Virus record (IMG/VR): IMGVR_UViG_3300025276_000142
Span: 1 to 29,893 of that record
DNA: 29,893 bases
Direction: 5' to 3' (one strand)
Source of the DNA: a virus
A model generated the notes under the pieces. It was not told the DNA's origin, did no database searches, and saw only the letters and a program-made list of their open reading frames with translations. Of this stretch, positions 2,773-23,566 are shown one piece after another (the stretch's first letter is position 1; the number at the start of each line of letters is the position of its first letter). The position numbers and the translations under genes are program-made.

Positions 2773-3231
2773 ATGGCTCGTAAACAAGCTCCTAGCTTCA
2801 AGTATCGTAAAGAAGGCCAGTCTTGGTACATTCCAAAGAAAGGTCTCGAAGGGGAGTGGTACCCTCTTGTACGTGTTGGAAGGCATGTTCCTTTCGGCTA
2901 TGAACAAGATCCAGACGATAAAGATATACTCCAACCTATTCCTTCTGAATTAGAACTACTAGAAAAGGCAAAGAAGTATATGTCTGAGTATAGTGTTCGT
3001 ATTGTAGCAAGGTGGTTGTCCGAGCAATCTGGTCGTTATATCTCACATGTAGGATTATACAAACGTGTCAATATCGAAGAATCCAGACGAGGCGCAGCCG
3101 ATGCCCATAGAGGATATGCCCGGCGCTATAAAGAAGCCTCGGAGAAAGCGGAAGTCCTCGACAAAGGTAGACTCGGTGGTAGAGGTACAAGAAGTATCGA
3201 CTCCGAAGATGACATCACCAGCGAGAGCTAA
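2773..3231 (+). CDS. HTH-like protein upstream of large terminase, unknown function
   Basis: The product is 152 residues from ATG 2773; a GTG at 2758 in frame is less likely. The first half contains SWYIPKKGLEGEWYPLVRVG, FGYEQDPDD and LQPIPSELELLEKAKKYM. The middle SVRIVARWLSEQSGRYISHVGLYKRV reads like a helix-turn-helix of the recombinase/resolvase sort: a helix, a turn and an S-x-x-G-L recognition helix. A second small-terminase-like or DNA-recognition role is plausible given its place directly before TerL. Its last 167 nt are also read in another frame as the TerL N-terminus. No good Shine-Dalgarno precedes it. Confidence 0.65.
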   Translation: MARKQAPSFKYRKEGQSWYIPKKGLEGEWYPLVRVGRHVPFGYEQDPDDKDILQPIPSELELLEKAKKYMSEYSVRIVARWLSEQSGRYISHVGLYKRVNIEESRRGAADAHRGYARRYKEASEKAEVLDKGRLGGRGTRSIDSEDDITSES

Positions 3232-4651
3232 GCCAGACGATATTGATGTACAGTCTGCACAGGACATTATCTTTGCAGCTAACCCCGGCCCACAGGAAGA
3301 CTTCCTAGCCTCCAGTGAACAAGAGGTTCTTTACGGTGGTGCAGCCGGTGGTGGTAAGTCATACGCGATGGTAGCTGACCCAGTTCGTTACTTTAACAAT
3401 GGTCAGTCCCGTGGCCTCTTAGTCCGTCGATCCACAGAGGAGCTACGAGAGCTCATCTCAGTGTCGAAGCAGTTATACCCTCGTGCTATCCCCGGTATTA
3501 AGTTCATGGAACGAGACAAGACGTGGGTGGCTCCTAGCGGTGCTACACTCTGGATGTCATACCTAGACCGTGATGACGATGTTATGCGCTACCAAGGACA
3601 GGCCTTTAACTGGATTGGACTTGACGAACTTACTCAGTGGCCTACTCCTTTCGCTTGGAACTACATGAGGTCTCGGCTACGTTCTACTAGTGCTTCTAAT
3701 TTACCTCTCTACATGAGAGCTACAACTAACCCCGGGGGTCCTGGCCATCACTGGGTTAAGTCTATGTTTATTGACCCAGCCCCGGCTAACACTAGCTTCA
3801 GTGCTACAAACGAACATGGTGATGTAATACAATGGCCCAAAGGTCATACTAGGGAAGGGGAGCCTCTATTTAAACGTAGGTTTATCCCAGCCAATCTATT
3901 CAATAACCCGTACCTATCGGAAGATGGTATGTACGAAGCCAACCTGCTCTCAATGCCTGAGCATCAGCGACGTCAGTTACTAGACGGTGACTGGAGTGTC
4001 TCAGAGGGTGCAGCCTTTACAGAGTTCAACCCTAAGCACCACGTAGTTGAACCCTTTACTATACCACATGACTGGGCTAAGTTTAGAGCCTGCGACTACG
4101 GTTACGGTTCAATGACAGCAGTTCTCTGGTTTGCTGTAGCCCCTTCCGAGCAGATCGTCATCTACCGGGAGTTGTACTGCAGCAAGGTTACAGCTTCTGA
4201 CTTAGCTGATAGGATCTTAGAAGCAGAAAGAGGTGAGAAGATACGCTACGGTGTCCTCGATAGCTCTCTCTGGCACAACCGAGGAGACACAGGCCCATCA
4301 CTAGCTGAGCAGATGATCCTAAAGGGTTGCAGGTGGCGTCCCTCAGACCGATCAAGGGGTTCACGTATGGCAGGTAAGAACGAGATACACCGTAGGTTAC
4401 AGGTAGACGAGTTTACAGGTGAACCAAGGATAGTCTTCTTTAATACTTGTCGCAACTTAGTCTCTGAATTACCATCCCTACCCCTAGACAAGAACAACCT
4501 AGAAGATGTAGATACTAAAAGCCCTATCGACCATGGGTATGATGCACTGCGGTACGGACTAATGACAAGACCTCGAAGTAGTTTGTTTGACTACGACCCT
4601 ACCTTACAAAGATCAGGCTTCCAAGCCTCTGACTCTGTTTTTGGTTACTAA
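3065..4651 (+). CDS. terL: Terminase large subunit (packaging ATPase and nuclease)
   Basis: The product is 528 residues. Walker A is GGAAGGGKS (91-99), Walker B is WIGLDE with D187-E188, and the coupling motif is RATTNPGG (218-225). The RNase H-like nuclease domain shows D344 (ACDYGYG), D399 (GVLDSS) and D489/D493 (IDHGYDALRYG), so both activities look intact. It would dock on the portal, pump DNA and cut it. The first ~60 residues are charged and probably disordered. GTG 3065 has AGGA 10 nt upstream; ATGs at 3101, 3116 or 3209 are alternatives. With the GTG start it overlaps the upstream gene by 167 nt. Confidence 0.95.
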   Translation: MSISKNPDEAQPMPIEDMPGAIKKPRRKRKSSTKVDSVVEVQEVSTPKMTSPARAKPDDIDVQSAQDIIFAANPGPQEDFLASSEQEVLYGGAAGGGKSYAMVADPVRYFNNGQSRGLLVRRSTEELRELISVSKQLYPRAIPGIKFMERDKTWVAPSGATLWMSYLDRDDDVMRYQGQAFNWIGLDELTQWPTPFAWNYMRSRLRSTSASNLPLYMRATTNPGGPGHHWVKSMFIDPAPANTSFSATNEHGDVIQWPKGHTREGEPLFKRRFIPANLFNNPYLSEDGMYEANLLSMPEHQRRQLLDGDWSVSEGAAFTEFNPKHHVVEPFTIPHDWAKFRACDYGYGSMTAVLWFAVAPSEQIVIYRELYCSKVTASDLADRILEAERGEKIRYGVLDSSLWHNRGDTGPSLAEQMILKGCRWRPSDRSRGSRMAGKNEIHRRLQVDEFTGEPRIVFFNTCRNLVSELPSLPLDKNNLEDVDTKSPIDHGYDALRYGLMTRPRSSLFDYDPTLQRSGFQASDSVFGY

Positions 4652-15942: not shown

Positions 15943-16848
15943 ATGGCTGATACTAACATTGTGACAGACGCAACACCTAAGAAAGCAGGGTTTGTTAACC
16001 GTGGTACAAACTACGCCTCTAAGCAAGCACGTATAGATAAAGACGAAAAGGAACTAGAAGAGCTTATGGAAGCTCAGGAGGGTACTTCCAATGAAGAAGA
16101 GGAAGAGCAGACAACGCAGCCCTCTTCTAAAGAAGTTGAAAAGGAAGACTCAGTAGAAGACGAGAACCTAAGTGGGGAGGAAAGATCCTTTAAGAAACGT
16201 TACGGTGATCTTCGTCGTCACATGGCCTCCAAGGAGAAAGAGTGGGAGTCTCGCTTTGAAGCTCTAGAAACTGGTCCTACTTCTATTAGACCTCCTAAAT
16301 CTAATGAAGATATTGAGGCATGGGCAAGCCAGAACCCTGATATTGCAGCTATAGTCGAGACTATTGCAGATAAGAAGGCTACTGAGAAGTTTGCATCAGC
16401 TGAAGGTCGTCTACGTGAGTTTGATGAAGCTAAGTCTGAAGCTGAACGTACTAAGGCTGAGAATAAGATCCGTAGCTCTCATGCTGACTTTGATGAGCTA
16501 CGTGAGGGTGACCAGTTCCACGACTGGGTTGAAGAGCAACCTAAGTGGGTACGTGACGCACTCTATGAGAACTCAGACGATGCTGCTAGCGTTATACGTG
16601 TACTTGACTTGTACAAGGTCGACAATGGTCTCACCCCTTCTGCTAAGAAGGCTAAGGCTAAAGATGCAGCTAAGACAGTATCTAAACGTACCCGTACACC
16701 AGTAGACGAGACAGGTTCTGGGTCTATGATTAAGGAATCTGCTGTAGCTAAGATGACTGATAAACAGTTTGAAGCTAACTACGAAGCAATTCAAGAAGCT
16801 ATGGCCTCAGGGAAGTTTGTATACGACATCTCTGGTAGGGCAAGATAA
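15943..16848 (+). CDS. Capsid scaffolding protein
   Basis: The product is 301 residues. The acidic, disordered N-terminus includes EKELEELMEAQEGTSNEEEE and DSVEDENLSGEE. It is followed by helical parts (SFKKRYGDLRRHMASKEKEW; IEAWASQNPDIAAIVETIAD) and a Lys-rich segment (KKAKAKDAAKTVSKRTRTP) before the C-terminal helix (KMTDKQFEANYEAIQEAMAS). Acid N-terminus, coiled coil and basic C-terminal helix, directly before the major capsid gene, is the usual scaffold layout. Scaffolds bind capsid through the C-terminal helix and leave or are degraded after assembly. AAAGGA precedes ATG 15943. No protease motif is seen. Confidence 0.8.
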   Translation: MADTNIVTDATPKKAGFVNRGTNYASKQARIDKDEKELEELMEAQEGTSNEEEEEQTTQPSSKEVEKEDSVEDENLSGEERSFKKRYGDLRRHMASKEKEWESRFEALETGPTSIRPPKSNEDIEAWASQNPDIAAIVETIADKKATEKFASAEGRLREFDEAKSEAERTKAENKIRSSHADFDELREGDQFHDWVEEQPKWVRDALYENSDDAASVIRVLDLYKVDNGLTPSAKKAKAKDAAKTVSKRTRTPVDETGSGSMIKESAVAKMTDKQFEANYEAIQEAMASGKFVYDISGRAR

Positions 16849-16871
16849 TACCGACATACTTAACTATTACC

Positions 16872-16900
16872 TTGACATCAAGGAATGAGTATGGTATAAC
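16872..16900 (+). promoter_or_regulatory. Strong extended -10 promoter for the major capsid gene
   Basis: TTGACA (16872-16877), a 17-bp spacer ending TGG, then TATAAC (16895-16900). The expected start is near 16907, giving a leader of about 260 nt before the capsid ATG at 17165. It follows the scaffold gene and probably lifts capsid message far above its upstream neighbours. Confidence 0.85.
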
Positions 16901-17164
16901 TGTGGAAGTACATGCGGCCCTACCTATGGTAGACACCCAGCCTGTACTCCACAGTAGACCTCTATGGTCCAAACTGAACACTAACAATCTTTAAGACTCA
17001 CCTGATAAAGCACAGGCCCTTCATGGTAAGGCCGGCCAGCCAAACCCGTAAAGCACCCTATAAGCAATCAGCCTCTTAGACGGATGACTTAGGTTCTATT
17101 AACCGGAGTATGTACTACGATTACTCCTCATACCAAGCCAAACATCTAATGAAGGATTCATATT
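16900..17164 (+). promoter_or_regulatory. Non-coding, hairpin-rich leader of the capsid mRNA
   Basis: This 265-nt stretch has no supported gene. Its inverted repeats are: CTGTGGA(A)GTAC 16900-16911 with GTACTCCACAG 16944-16954 (11 bp, one bulged A); inside it CTACC-TAT-GGTAG 16920-16932; GGC(C)CTT 17015-17021 with AAGGCC 17028-17033; and GGAGTA 17105-17110 with TACTCC 17122-17127. The last ends 23 nt before the ribosome-binding site GAAGGA (17151-17156). Because transcription from the promoter starts near 16907, the full outer hairpin forms only in read-through RNA. It may stabilise, process or control capsid mRNA; that is inference. Confidence 0.55.
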
Positions 17165-18235
17165 ATGGCTTTTCCAGCAGTCCCCGGCTACGGCAACTTA
17201 CCTAACGGTAACTTCTCCAGTGTAATCTATTCGAAGAAAGTTCAACTTGCATTCCGCAAGAAGGCTATCTGTACAGATATCACTAACTCTGACTATTTCG
17301 GTGAAATCGCAGCACAAGGCGACACCGTAAAGATCATCAAAGAACCTGAGATTTCAGTTAGCTCCTATGAGCGCGGTACTCAGATTCAAGCACAGAACTT
17401 GGATGATGAAGATTTCTCCTTGACAATCGACAAAGCTAACTACTTCGCGTTTAAGATCGACGATATCGAAGAAGCTCATAGCCACGTCAACTTCATGGAT
17501 CTTGCTACCAACCGTGCGGCTTACCGCTTGGCTGACCAGCTCGACGAAGAAGTCCTTGGTTACTTGTCCGGCTATAAGCAAACTGCTTTGAATACAGTAG
17601 CAGACCAAGTAAACGACATTGTAAACGGTACTAAAGCTATCCCTACGGCTGGTAACGATGAATTGTTGACTTCAATGAAGTTGATCAAAAGCTCTTTTGG
17701 CAACATTACAGGTGCAACAGGTGACTTCTCTATTCCAGTTGCTGCACGTTTGCCGGGCGCTACTGCCTTGCCAACAACATACGCTTCACCTGTTATGATG
17801 ATTAACCGTATGGGTCGTCTCTTGGATCAACAGAATGTTGACAAAGACGGACGGTGGTTGGTTATTGACCCAGTCCTTTTGGAAGTACTTATGGATGAAG
17901 ATTCACGGTTCTTGCAGGTCGATTGGGGTGATTCAGGCGCCTTGCGTAACGGTCTGACTTTGTCAAACTGGAACGGTTTCCGTGTCTATGTATCCAACAA
18001 CTTGCCAAGTGTAGGTACGGGTCCAGCAACAACCGGTACAGAAAACAACAACACTAACTATGGTGTTATCGTAGCTGGTCACGACTCTTCTGTAGCTTCT
18101 GCTGAGCAGATCAACAAGACAGAGACTTACCGTGACCCTGACAGCTTTGCTGACATTGTACGTGGTATGCACCTGTACGGTCGCAAGATCCTTCGTCCAG
18201 AAGCAATTGCTACTGCAAAGTACAACCTTGCTTAA
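17165..18235 (+). CDS. Major capsid protein
   Basis: The product is 356 residues. It opens with MAFPAVPGYGNLPNGNFSSV and KKVQLAFRKKAICTDITNSD, the start style of podovirus HK97-fold coat proteins of the P22/N4-like sort. It continues with GDTVKIIKEPEISVSSYERG, FAFKIDDIEEAHSHVNFMDL and, near the end, GRKILRPEAIATAKYNL. These are the spine-helix and A-domain segments usual in coat proteins, but no E-loop crosslink chemistry can be claimed. The order scaffold, coat, decoration-like protein fits. GAAGGA is 8 nt before ATG 17165. Leucine is mostly TTG here, unlike neighbours that favour CTA/TTA/CTT, suggesting selection for high expression. It has its own promoter and leader. Confidence 0.88.
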   Translation: MAFPAVPGYGNLPNGNFSSVIYSKKVQLAFRKKAICTDITNSDYFGEIAAQGDTVKIIKEPEISVSSYERGTQIQAQNLDDEDFSLTIDKANYFAFKIDDIEEAHSHVNFMDLATNRAAYRLADQLDEEVLGYLSGYKQTALNTVADQVNDIVNGTKAIPTAGNDELLTSMKLIKSSFGNITGATGDFSIPVAARLPGATALPTTYASPVMMINRMGRLLDQQNVDKDGRWLVIDPVLLEVLMDEDSRFLQVDWGDSGALRNGLTLSNWNGFRVYVSNNLPSVGTGPATTGTENNNTNYGVIVAGHDSSVASAEQINKTETYRDPDSFADIVRGMHLYGRKILRPEAIATAKYNLA

Positions 18236-23537: not shown

Positions 23538-23566
23538 TTGACAGATCAGTAAAACATGTGTATAAT
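23538..23566 (+). promoter_or_regulatory. Perfect consensus sigma70 promoter before the acyltransferase gene
   Basis: TTGACA (23538-23543), a 17-bp spacer and TATAAT (23561-23566), with no mismatch to consensus. Transcription should begin near 23573, leaving a 34-nt leader before GTG 23607. It sits in the 93-nt gap after the S74 fibre and probably drives the acyltransferase and the internal-virion block. Confidence 0.9.

Follow-up and report, generated by a model that had tools for sequence, protein, structure and literature searches.

The virus record IMGVR_UViG_3300025276_000142, analyzed over its full 29,893 bases and referred to here as the window, carries a conserved RNA of approximately 130 nucleotides (nt), preceded by a 5′ hairpin termed P1; the RNA and this hairpin lie between a sigma-70 promoter and the major capsid (coat) gene, an arrangement of HMO-2011-type phages. 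Comparison with relatives established a folded RNA with covariation, a constant position ahead of the capsid gene, and a self-complementary tip on one of its hairpins, P3. The interpretation we favor, with moderate confidence, is that this RNA is a cis-acting, probably dimerizing 5′ leader that keeps the capsid mRNA of HMO-2011-type phages long-lived and well translated. Within this interpretation, we infer the transcription start, dimerization in vivo, and the effect of the leader on stability or translation. An initial annotation of the window had proposed a structured noncoding leader before the major capsid gene and had set covariance analysis of related capsid leaders beforehand as a test. 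Compensatory changes proved to be abundant, and the proposal was borne out by covariation far above controls.

Our capsid-gene scans and the viral RNA-pattern scan were samples, and counts from them cover the matches listed. We parsed 204 of 208 leaders, 137 of them distinct, and exclusion of the misparsed CRP-212 left 136 distinct leaders and 53 diverse representatives. A gap of 212 to 347 nt free of open reading frames (ORFs) precedes the capsid gene in all 70 sequences with a readable upstream ORF (69 viral loci among the matches listed and the window), and the aligned leaders share the promoter and several blocks, including ACCTG-NNN-AAGTAYAGGCCC, GCACCCTAGAAA, and AGCCTCTT. Using these shared blocks as anchors, we derived helices P1, P0, P2a to P2c, and P3. 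Anchor-based pair counts made without structural fitting exceeded all shuffles for P3, P2b, and P2a (0 of 2,000 shuffles reached the real value for each; 53 diverse sequences). The P1 motif was located in 42 of the 53 representatives, and in the 39 that entered the outer-stem test, the P1 outer stem was 0.766 paired compared with 0.465 ± 0.025 when shuffled (0 of 2,000). Covariation in an unfitted MAFFT alignment of 40 sequences was 0.299, against 0.127 ± 0.009 for shuffled and 0.067 to 0.108 for slid controls.

We then have the results from model R1, whose training alignment, A1, consisted of 40 sequences (39 of 52 core references and locus L017, with isolate sequences and a number of leaders that were divergent or had a short P3 kept out). 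The model matched the window at 16971-17100 with an E value of 1.6e-20, the window being among the 40 training sequences. The held-out set, A2, comprised 94 of the 117 R1 matches at E ≤ 0.01, with near-duplicates removed by eye. Once these 94 sequences were aligned to R1, changes on both sides were observed at 32 of 32 model pairs, and covariation was 0.531, compared with 0.177 ± 0.007 for shuffled and 0.058 to 0.095 for slid controls; because the held-out alignment is fitted to the R1 model, the slid control matters. P0 is among the helices that covary in this set. Relatives thus display the compensatory base changes expected of a structured cis-acting mRNA leader.

In the window, all leader features lie on the + strand, and a single-sequence fold recovers the comparative P0/P1/P2/P3 structure. 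P1 (16907-16948), defined by folding and comparison, has arms at 16907-16912 and 16943-16948, an internal loop of GCC (16917-16919) opposite ACACC (16933-16937), and an apical stem, CTACC/GGTAG. The rod domain (16976-17096), identified by the R1 match, the fold, and the held-out covariation of P0, is closed by P0, in which 16976-16979 pairs with 17093-17096 and 16981-16984 with 17089-17092. Covariation then supports P2 (16993-17077), composed of P2a (16993-16996/17074-17077), an internal loop of CTCACC (16997-17002) opposite GCC (17071-17073), and P2b (17003-17006/17067-17070). A GCC/ACC internal-loop motif is therefore common to P1 and P2, and the internal loops rank among the most invariant parts of the aligned leaders. 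Alignment and covariation further revealed a conserved AAGYAYAGGCC/CACCCUANAA region (17007-17064) with P2c (17014-17016/17057-17059), followed by the P3 hairpin (17019-17053; covariation and tip survey), whose tip, CGGCCA (17033-17038), holds the self-complementary GGCC (17034-17037). A conserved unpaired AAGCCAAA element sits between the rod and the ribosome-binding site, GAAGGA (17151-17156, assigned from sequence), and leader comparison places a AAGCCAAAC element at 17135-17143. In 62 of 66 distinct leaders, GCC[ATC]A occurs 21 to 29 nt 5′ of the ATG (28 nt in the window). The distance from the rod end to the capsid start codon is approximately 70 nt in the window and about 16 to 100 nt in relatives (matches inspected by eye). 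A boxA-like reading of GCCUCUU was dropped because this strand pairs in P2a.

The P3 tip has what appears to be the hallmark of a symmetric kissing loop, and hence of RNA homodimerization. A GNNC tetramer is present in the tip of 166 of 214 distinct P3 hairpins (119 GGCC, 23 GCGC, 15 GATC, 7 GTAC, and 2 scored as non-self-complementary); of the 240 distant loci, 9 had upstream DNA too short for P3 parsing, and 97 were left unparsed by the pattern. Self-complementary tips thus account for 164 of the 166 GNNC-bearing hairpins and 164 of 214 overall, with all four possible types represented and other combinations almost absent. As for the two exceptions, L036 reads GAGCGC and so contains GCGC, and L076 is a shortened hairpin. 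The middle bases of GNNC were complementary in 36 of 36 diverse representatives, compared with 19.4 expected (0 of 10,000 shuffles), and the four types interchange at least 20 times on a 199-row capsid tree built with FastTree. None of 38 P1 loops has a self-complementary tip. Because adjacent bases cannot pair together, covariation in the P3 tip points to the same loop pairing in two molecules. We considered and rejected pairing of the tip with a second copy inside the leader, which was observed for 0 of 23 GCGC leaders (1.9 expected) and 3 of 15 GATC leaders (3.9 expected); such pairing may occur in the small GTAC class, at 6 of 7 (3.1 expected). An apical loop covarying among palindromes, as found here, is what a symmetric kissing-loop dimer would be predicted to display. 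In OLE RNA, changes of GGCC to GAUC or AGCU support a symmetric kissing loop that was seen by cryo-electron microscopy (available part of PMC12286853).

The RNA is closely linked to the capsid gene. With the RNA pattern alone, 114 of 116 viral contigs among the matches listed have a capsid gene 67 to 204 nt downstream; the other two matches lie near contig ends, so that these contigs end too soon to show the gene. R1 detected 11 of 13 isolate records with one match per genome, directly 5′ of the coat gene, and the remaining two, rhizobial phages, gave no R1 match at E ≤ 1 (phiM6 reached 17.7 bits and an E value of 0.36 in another R1 search). Around more distant capsid genes, R1 matched 117 of 240 loci at E ≤ 0.01 among the matches listed, every match being on the + strand and just before the capsid gene. 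In ctYwJ313, an HNH endonuclease gene is inserted between the promoter-proximal P1 region and the rod (L087:1842-2411), and the rod (R1 match 2367-2493) stays before the capsid gene at 2528. The capsid gene downstream of the pattern matches, the spacing held to the ATG, and the ctYwJ313 rod staying with its capsid gene together favor action in cis. A fixed position upstream of one gene, as expected of a structured cis-acting mRNA leader, is consistent with this conclusion. Host-genome copies were considered and rejected: none of four core-pattern matches in host-genome contigs has the CACCCTAGAAA block or an adjoining capsid gene, and two of them recur at E values of 0.77 and 2.9.

The promoter (16872-16900) consists of a −35 element, TTGACA (16872-16877), a 17-nt spacer, and an extended −10 element, TGG-TATAAC (16892-16900, with the −10 itself at 16895-16900), and matches 11 of 12 consensus bases, confirming the extended −10 promoter that had been assigned before the capsid gene from sequence alone. 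The gene-free segment, originally given as 265 nt, corresponds to an ORF-free gap of 316 nt (16849-17164), approximately 265 nt of which lie 3′ of the −10. The TTGACA and TATAACT columns are at least 90% conserved in a 70-leader alignment, and promoter-like sites scoring at least 11 of 12 number four in the whole window (2743, 7338, 16872, and 23538), all with 17-nt spacers and on the + strand. Mean pairing of P1 climbs at positions 4 and 5 after the −10 (0.65 and 0.79, compared with 0.46 and 0.51 with a shuffled discriminator; 46 leaders), suggesting that the P1 5′ strand starts about where the transcript should. Promoter geometry and this onset of P1 pairing point to a probable transcription start at the A at 16907, 7 nt past the −10. 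The P1 stem is extendable in the window by pairing of 16899-16906 with 16948-16955, around the −10 and discriminator and mostly 5′ of the probable start; this extension would form solely in read-through RNA from upstream. Of 13 isolate phage records, 8 share a TTGAC-N17..18-TATAAC site, either a promoter or a coding coincidence, at similar positions (approximately 10.3 to 13.7 kb) on the + strand, opposite to that of the capsid genes.

In the model we favor, a host-type sigma-70 promoter would start the RNA at approximately 16907, placing the 5′ end inside P1, and the P0-P2-P3 rod would come next, followed by the unpaired element and an open ribosome-binding site. The GNNC tip of P3 would most likely pair with the identical tip of a second transcript to form a kissing-loop homodimer, and the leader would most likely make the capsid message stable and well translated in cis, possibly as a dimer and possibly with a protein at the twin loops. 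Since the ribosome-binding site is not hidden, a simple off-switch seems unlikely, which favors a stabilizing, translation-supporting, probably dimerizing leader. More tentatively, and with somewhat less than even confidence, we propose that capsid mRNAs of HMO-2011-type phages dimerize via the leader kissing loop, which would control capsid synthesis or gather nascent capsid subunits and would represent a dimer-initiation-like element on the mRNA of a double-stranded DNA phage.

Several observations weigh against this model. Taken alone, the window sequence is unremarkable: inverted repeats of at least 6 nt in the leader number 10, compared with 10.1 in 300 dinucleotide shuffles, and the minimum free energy is −57.3, compared with −54.6 ± 4.3 for shuffles (z = −0.63). 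The initial annotation had counted at least four inverted repeats; repeats are indeed present, but in a number no higher than in shuffles, so that they could be due to chance and only comparison decides. Masking of the ribosome-binding site was not detected in 38 leaders, with a mean unpaired probability of 0.36 for real and 0.31 for shuffled leaders. In the unfitted alignment, only 50.5% of P0 cells are paired, and RNAalifold on A1 returned just one 4-pair hairpin, CCUG/YAGG, that competes with P2b and P2c; this hairpin excludes P2b and P2c, which covary better, and may be a folding intermediate. In the P2c region, most relatives have an AGUA/GAA module, where the window has AGCA/UAA instead; the AGUA/GAA module is sarcin-ricin-like. 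Finally, 48 of 214 P3 hairpins lack a GNNC tip (12 TGGCAA, 8 CGGCAG or CGGCGG, and the rest mostly short or odd), and palindromic and nonpalindromic tips switch at least 17 times on the capsid tree, suggesting that some phages can do without the dimer contact. Recombination between leader and capsid gene is possible and would inflate such counts of changes on the tree.

The strongest rival, or addition, to a stabilizing leader is that the twin GCC/ACC loops are bound by coat or scaffold protein. As an autoregulatory operator, the RNA would allow this protein to repress capsid synthesis when free protein builds up, comparable to translational repression by phage coat proteins. The location of the RNA between a scaffold-like ORF and the coat gene, the invariance of the internal loops and the presence of their motif twice, and the fixed spacing to the ATG all fit such an operator, but no conserved structure masks the ribosome-binding site and the protein partner is hypothetical, and we consider repression of this type unlikely, if worth serious attention. 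Antitermination and a packaging-type trans-acting RNA are less likely than either a stabilizing leader or a protein-binding operator. For put-type processive antitermination, the nascent leader would bind host RNA polymerase for read-through of the late genes. The RNA does start from a near-consensus promoter located 5′ of the late genes; it is conserved, promoter-proximal, and multihairpin and presumably resembles HK022 put. Against this, terminator-like sites are near chance (16 compared with 12.3 ± 3.8, both strands), a 12-of-12 promoter at 23538 is without such an RNA, and the rod of ctYwJ313 has moved away from the promoter yet stays with the capsid gene, and spacing to the ATG is conserved among leaders; antitermination is thus improbable in our estimation.

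We give similarly little credence to a trans-acting RNA, whether a small RNA released by processing or an RNA with a structural or packaging role that multimerizes through P3 tips like phi29 pRNA or OLE and GOLLD. The fold is compact and independent, and a symmetric kissing-loop signature is found in RNAs that act as multimers (available part of PMC12286853), yet the RNA was not found apart from the capsid gene among the matches listed and isolate records, no + strand terminator-like site was called between the RNA and the gene, the ATG spacing is conserved, and no Rfam family matched at E ≤ 10. Still less probable is a ligand or temperature switch, working by exchange between 16945 and 17105 or by GUUUAGCUU swapping between the P0 5′ strand and a downstream AAGCC. 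Sequences complementary for either exchange are present in some leaders, and the 6-nt complement in the window was reached by 18 of 200 shuffles. Relatives do not keep the 16945/17105 complement, however, AAGCC is retained in the lineage of the window despite a changed would-be partner (read from alignments), and the ribosome-binding site is at least as open as in shuffled leaders. In the leaders tested, we found no conserved second fold that would cover the ribosome-binding site or produce a terminator, as expected of a riboswitch or expression switch. The least probable explanation is that the palindromic tip is a DNA-level site, such as a protein operator or restriction-type tetramer, rather than an RNA contact. 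GGCC, GCGC, GATC, and GTAC are also DNA palindromes, but P3 stems use many G-U pairs, which outnumber every other standard pair at columns 76-124 (45 sequences), and G-U helices form in RNA, not DNA; furthermore, the palindrome stays in the apical loop and is absent from P1 loops.

Other features of the leader are more restricted in distribution. The GGAGTA/TACTCC hairpin that had been noted before the ribosome-binding site, here P5 (17105-17127; arms 17105-17110 and 17122-17127), is real and covaries within its own lineage but is accessory, with P5-class hairpins in 23 of 136 distinct relatives. A second TACTCC is present at 16945-16950, and its proposed pairing with GGAGTA at 17105 to give two alternative folds did not hold up, the complement not being conserved in relatives. 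Among the 23 P5-class leaders, the longest complement of this type was 0 to 6 nt and was matched by 18 to 200 of 200 shuffles, with the window lowest at 18. A second accessory hairpin, P1b (16953-16975), pairs GACC (16957-16960) with GGTC (16966-16969) in the window fold and in the window's own lineage; its arms differ by eye among L001, L005, L006, L007, L013, and L015. A hidden small ORF in the leader was rejected, as any of the six frames is open through the core in only 1 of 53 representatives.

The capsid gene preceded by the leader (17165-18235, + strand) encodes 356 amino acids and matches phrog_267, major head protein, at an E value of 1.1e-62. The ORF upstream of it (15943-16848) belongs to phrog_13678, of unknown function, and we call it scaffold-like on the basis of its position. 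The nearest named phages to the window are Roseobacter CRP phages and Puniceispirillum phage HMO-2011. In one relative, a group I intron (RF00028, 82.9 bits; L024:4058-4289) lies at the extreme 3′ end of the capsid gene, whose own match spans 3001-4071.

Searches against Rfam 15 gave no matches in the window at the gathering score and none at E ≤ 10 on 16840-17180, including to group I intron RF00028 over the window leader; nine relatives scanned whole gave two matches at E ≤ 3, both outside the leaders. The T7 phi10/gene 10 leader combines a strong promoter with a 5′ stem-loop leader ahead of the gene for the major capsid protein but is much shorter and is not known to have these motifs, whereas the leader described here has a sigma-70-type promoter and a complex covarying fold. 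The phi29 packaging RNA is a phage RNA that multimerizes through 4-nt loop-loop contacts. Compared with it by position and Rfam, the leader has no Rfam match, precedes the capsid gene, and was not found apart from it among the matches listed. Mu-gpT-DE RNA occurs near Mu-like major head (gpT) genes. Like the leader, it is a conserved structured RNA tied to a phage head gene (RF03012; number from the available part of PMC7657543), but it belongs to different phages, and the leader has no match to RF03012 at E ≤ 10. OLE and GOLLD, the latter encoded by phages or prophages, have symmetric kissing loops (available part of PMC12286853) but are large stand-alone RNAs, whereas the present leader is compact and fixed before one gene, with a dimer predicted from sequence. 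The manA, wcaG, and PhotoRC-II RNAs of marine cyanophages are structured marine-phage RNAs, several in potential 5′ untranslated regions (available part of PMC2864571); unlike the leader, they are linked to metabolic or photosynthesis genes, and the leader has no Rfam match to them.

A literature search of partial coverage returned no mention of such a leader RNA, and the words promoter, noncoding, and non-coding are absent from the genome papers examined on the HMO-2011 group and RCA-phage relatives. We therefore provisionally regard the leader as defining a new RNA family within a known class, the structured phage leader, with an unusual symmetric kissing-loop signature. HMO-2011-type phages are described as a dominant, broadly distributed marine viral group (available part of PMC9038755). 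If our interpretation is correct, control of their capsid mRNA would be testable in cultured phages, and a small, gene-linked case would be added to the few known natural RNA homodimers. The leader thus suggests that phages may handle their most heavily used mRNA in a new manner.
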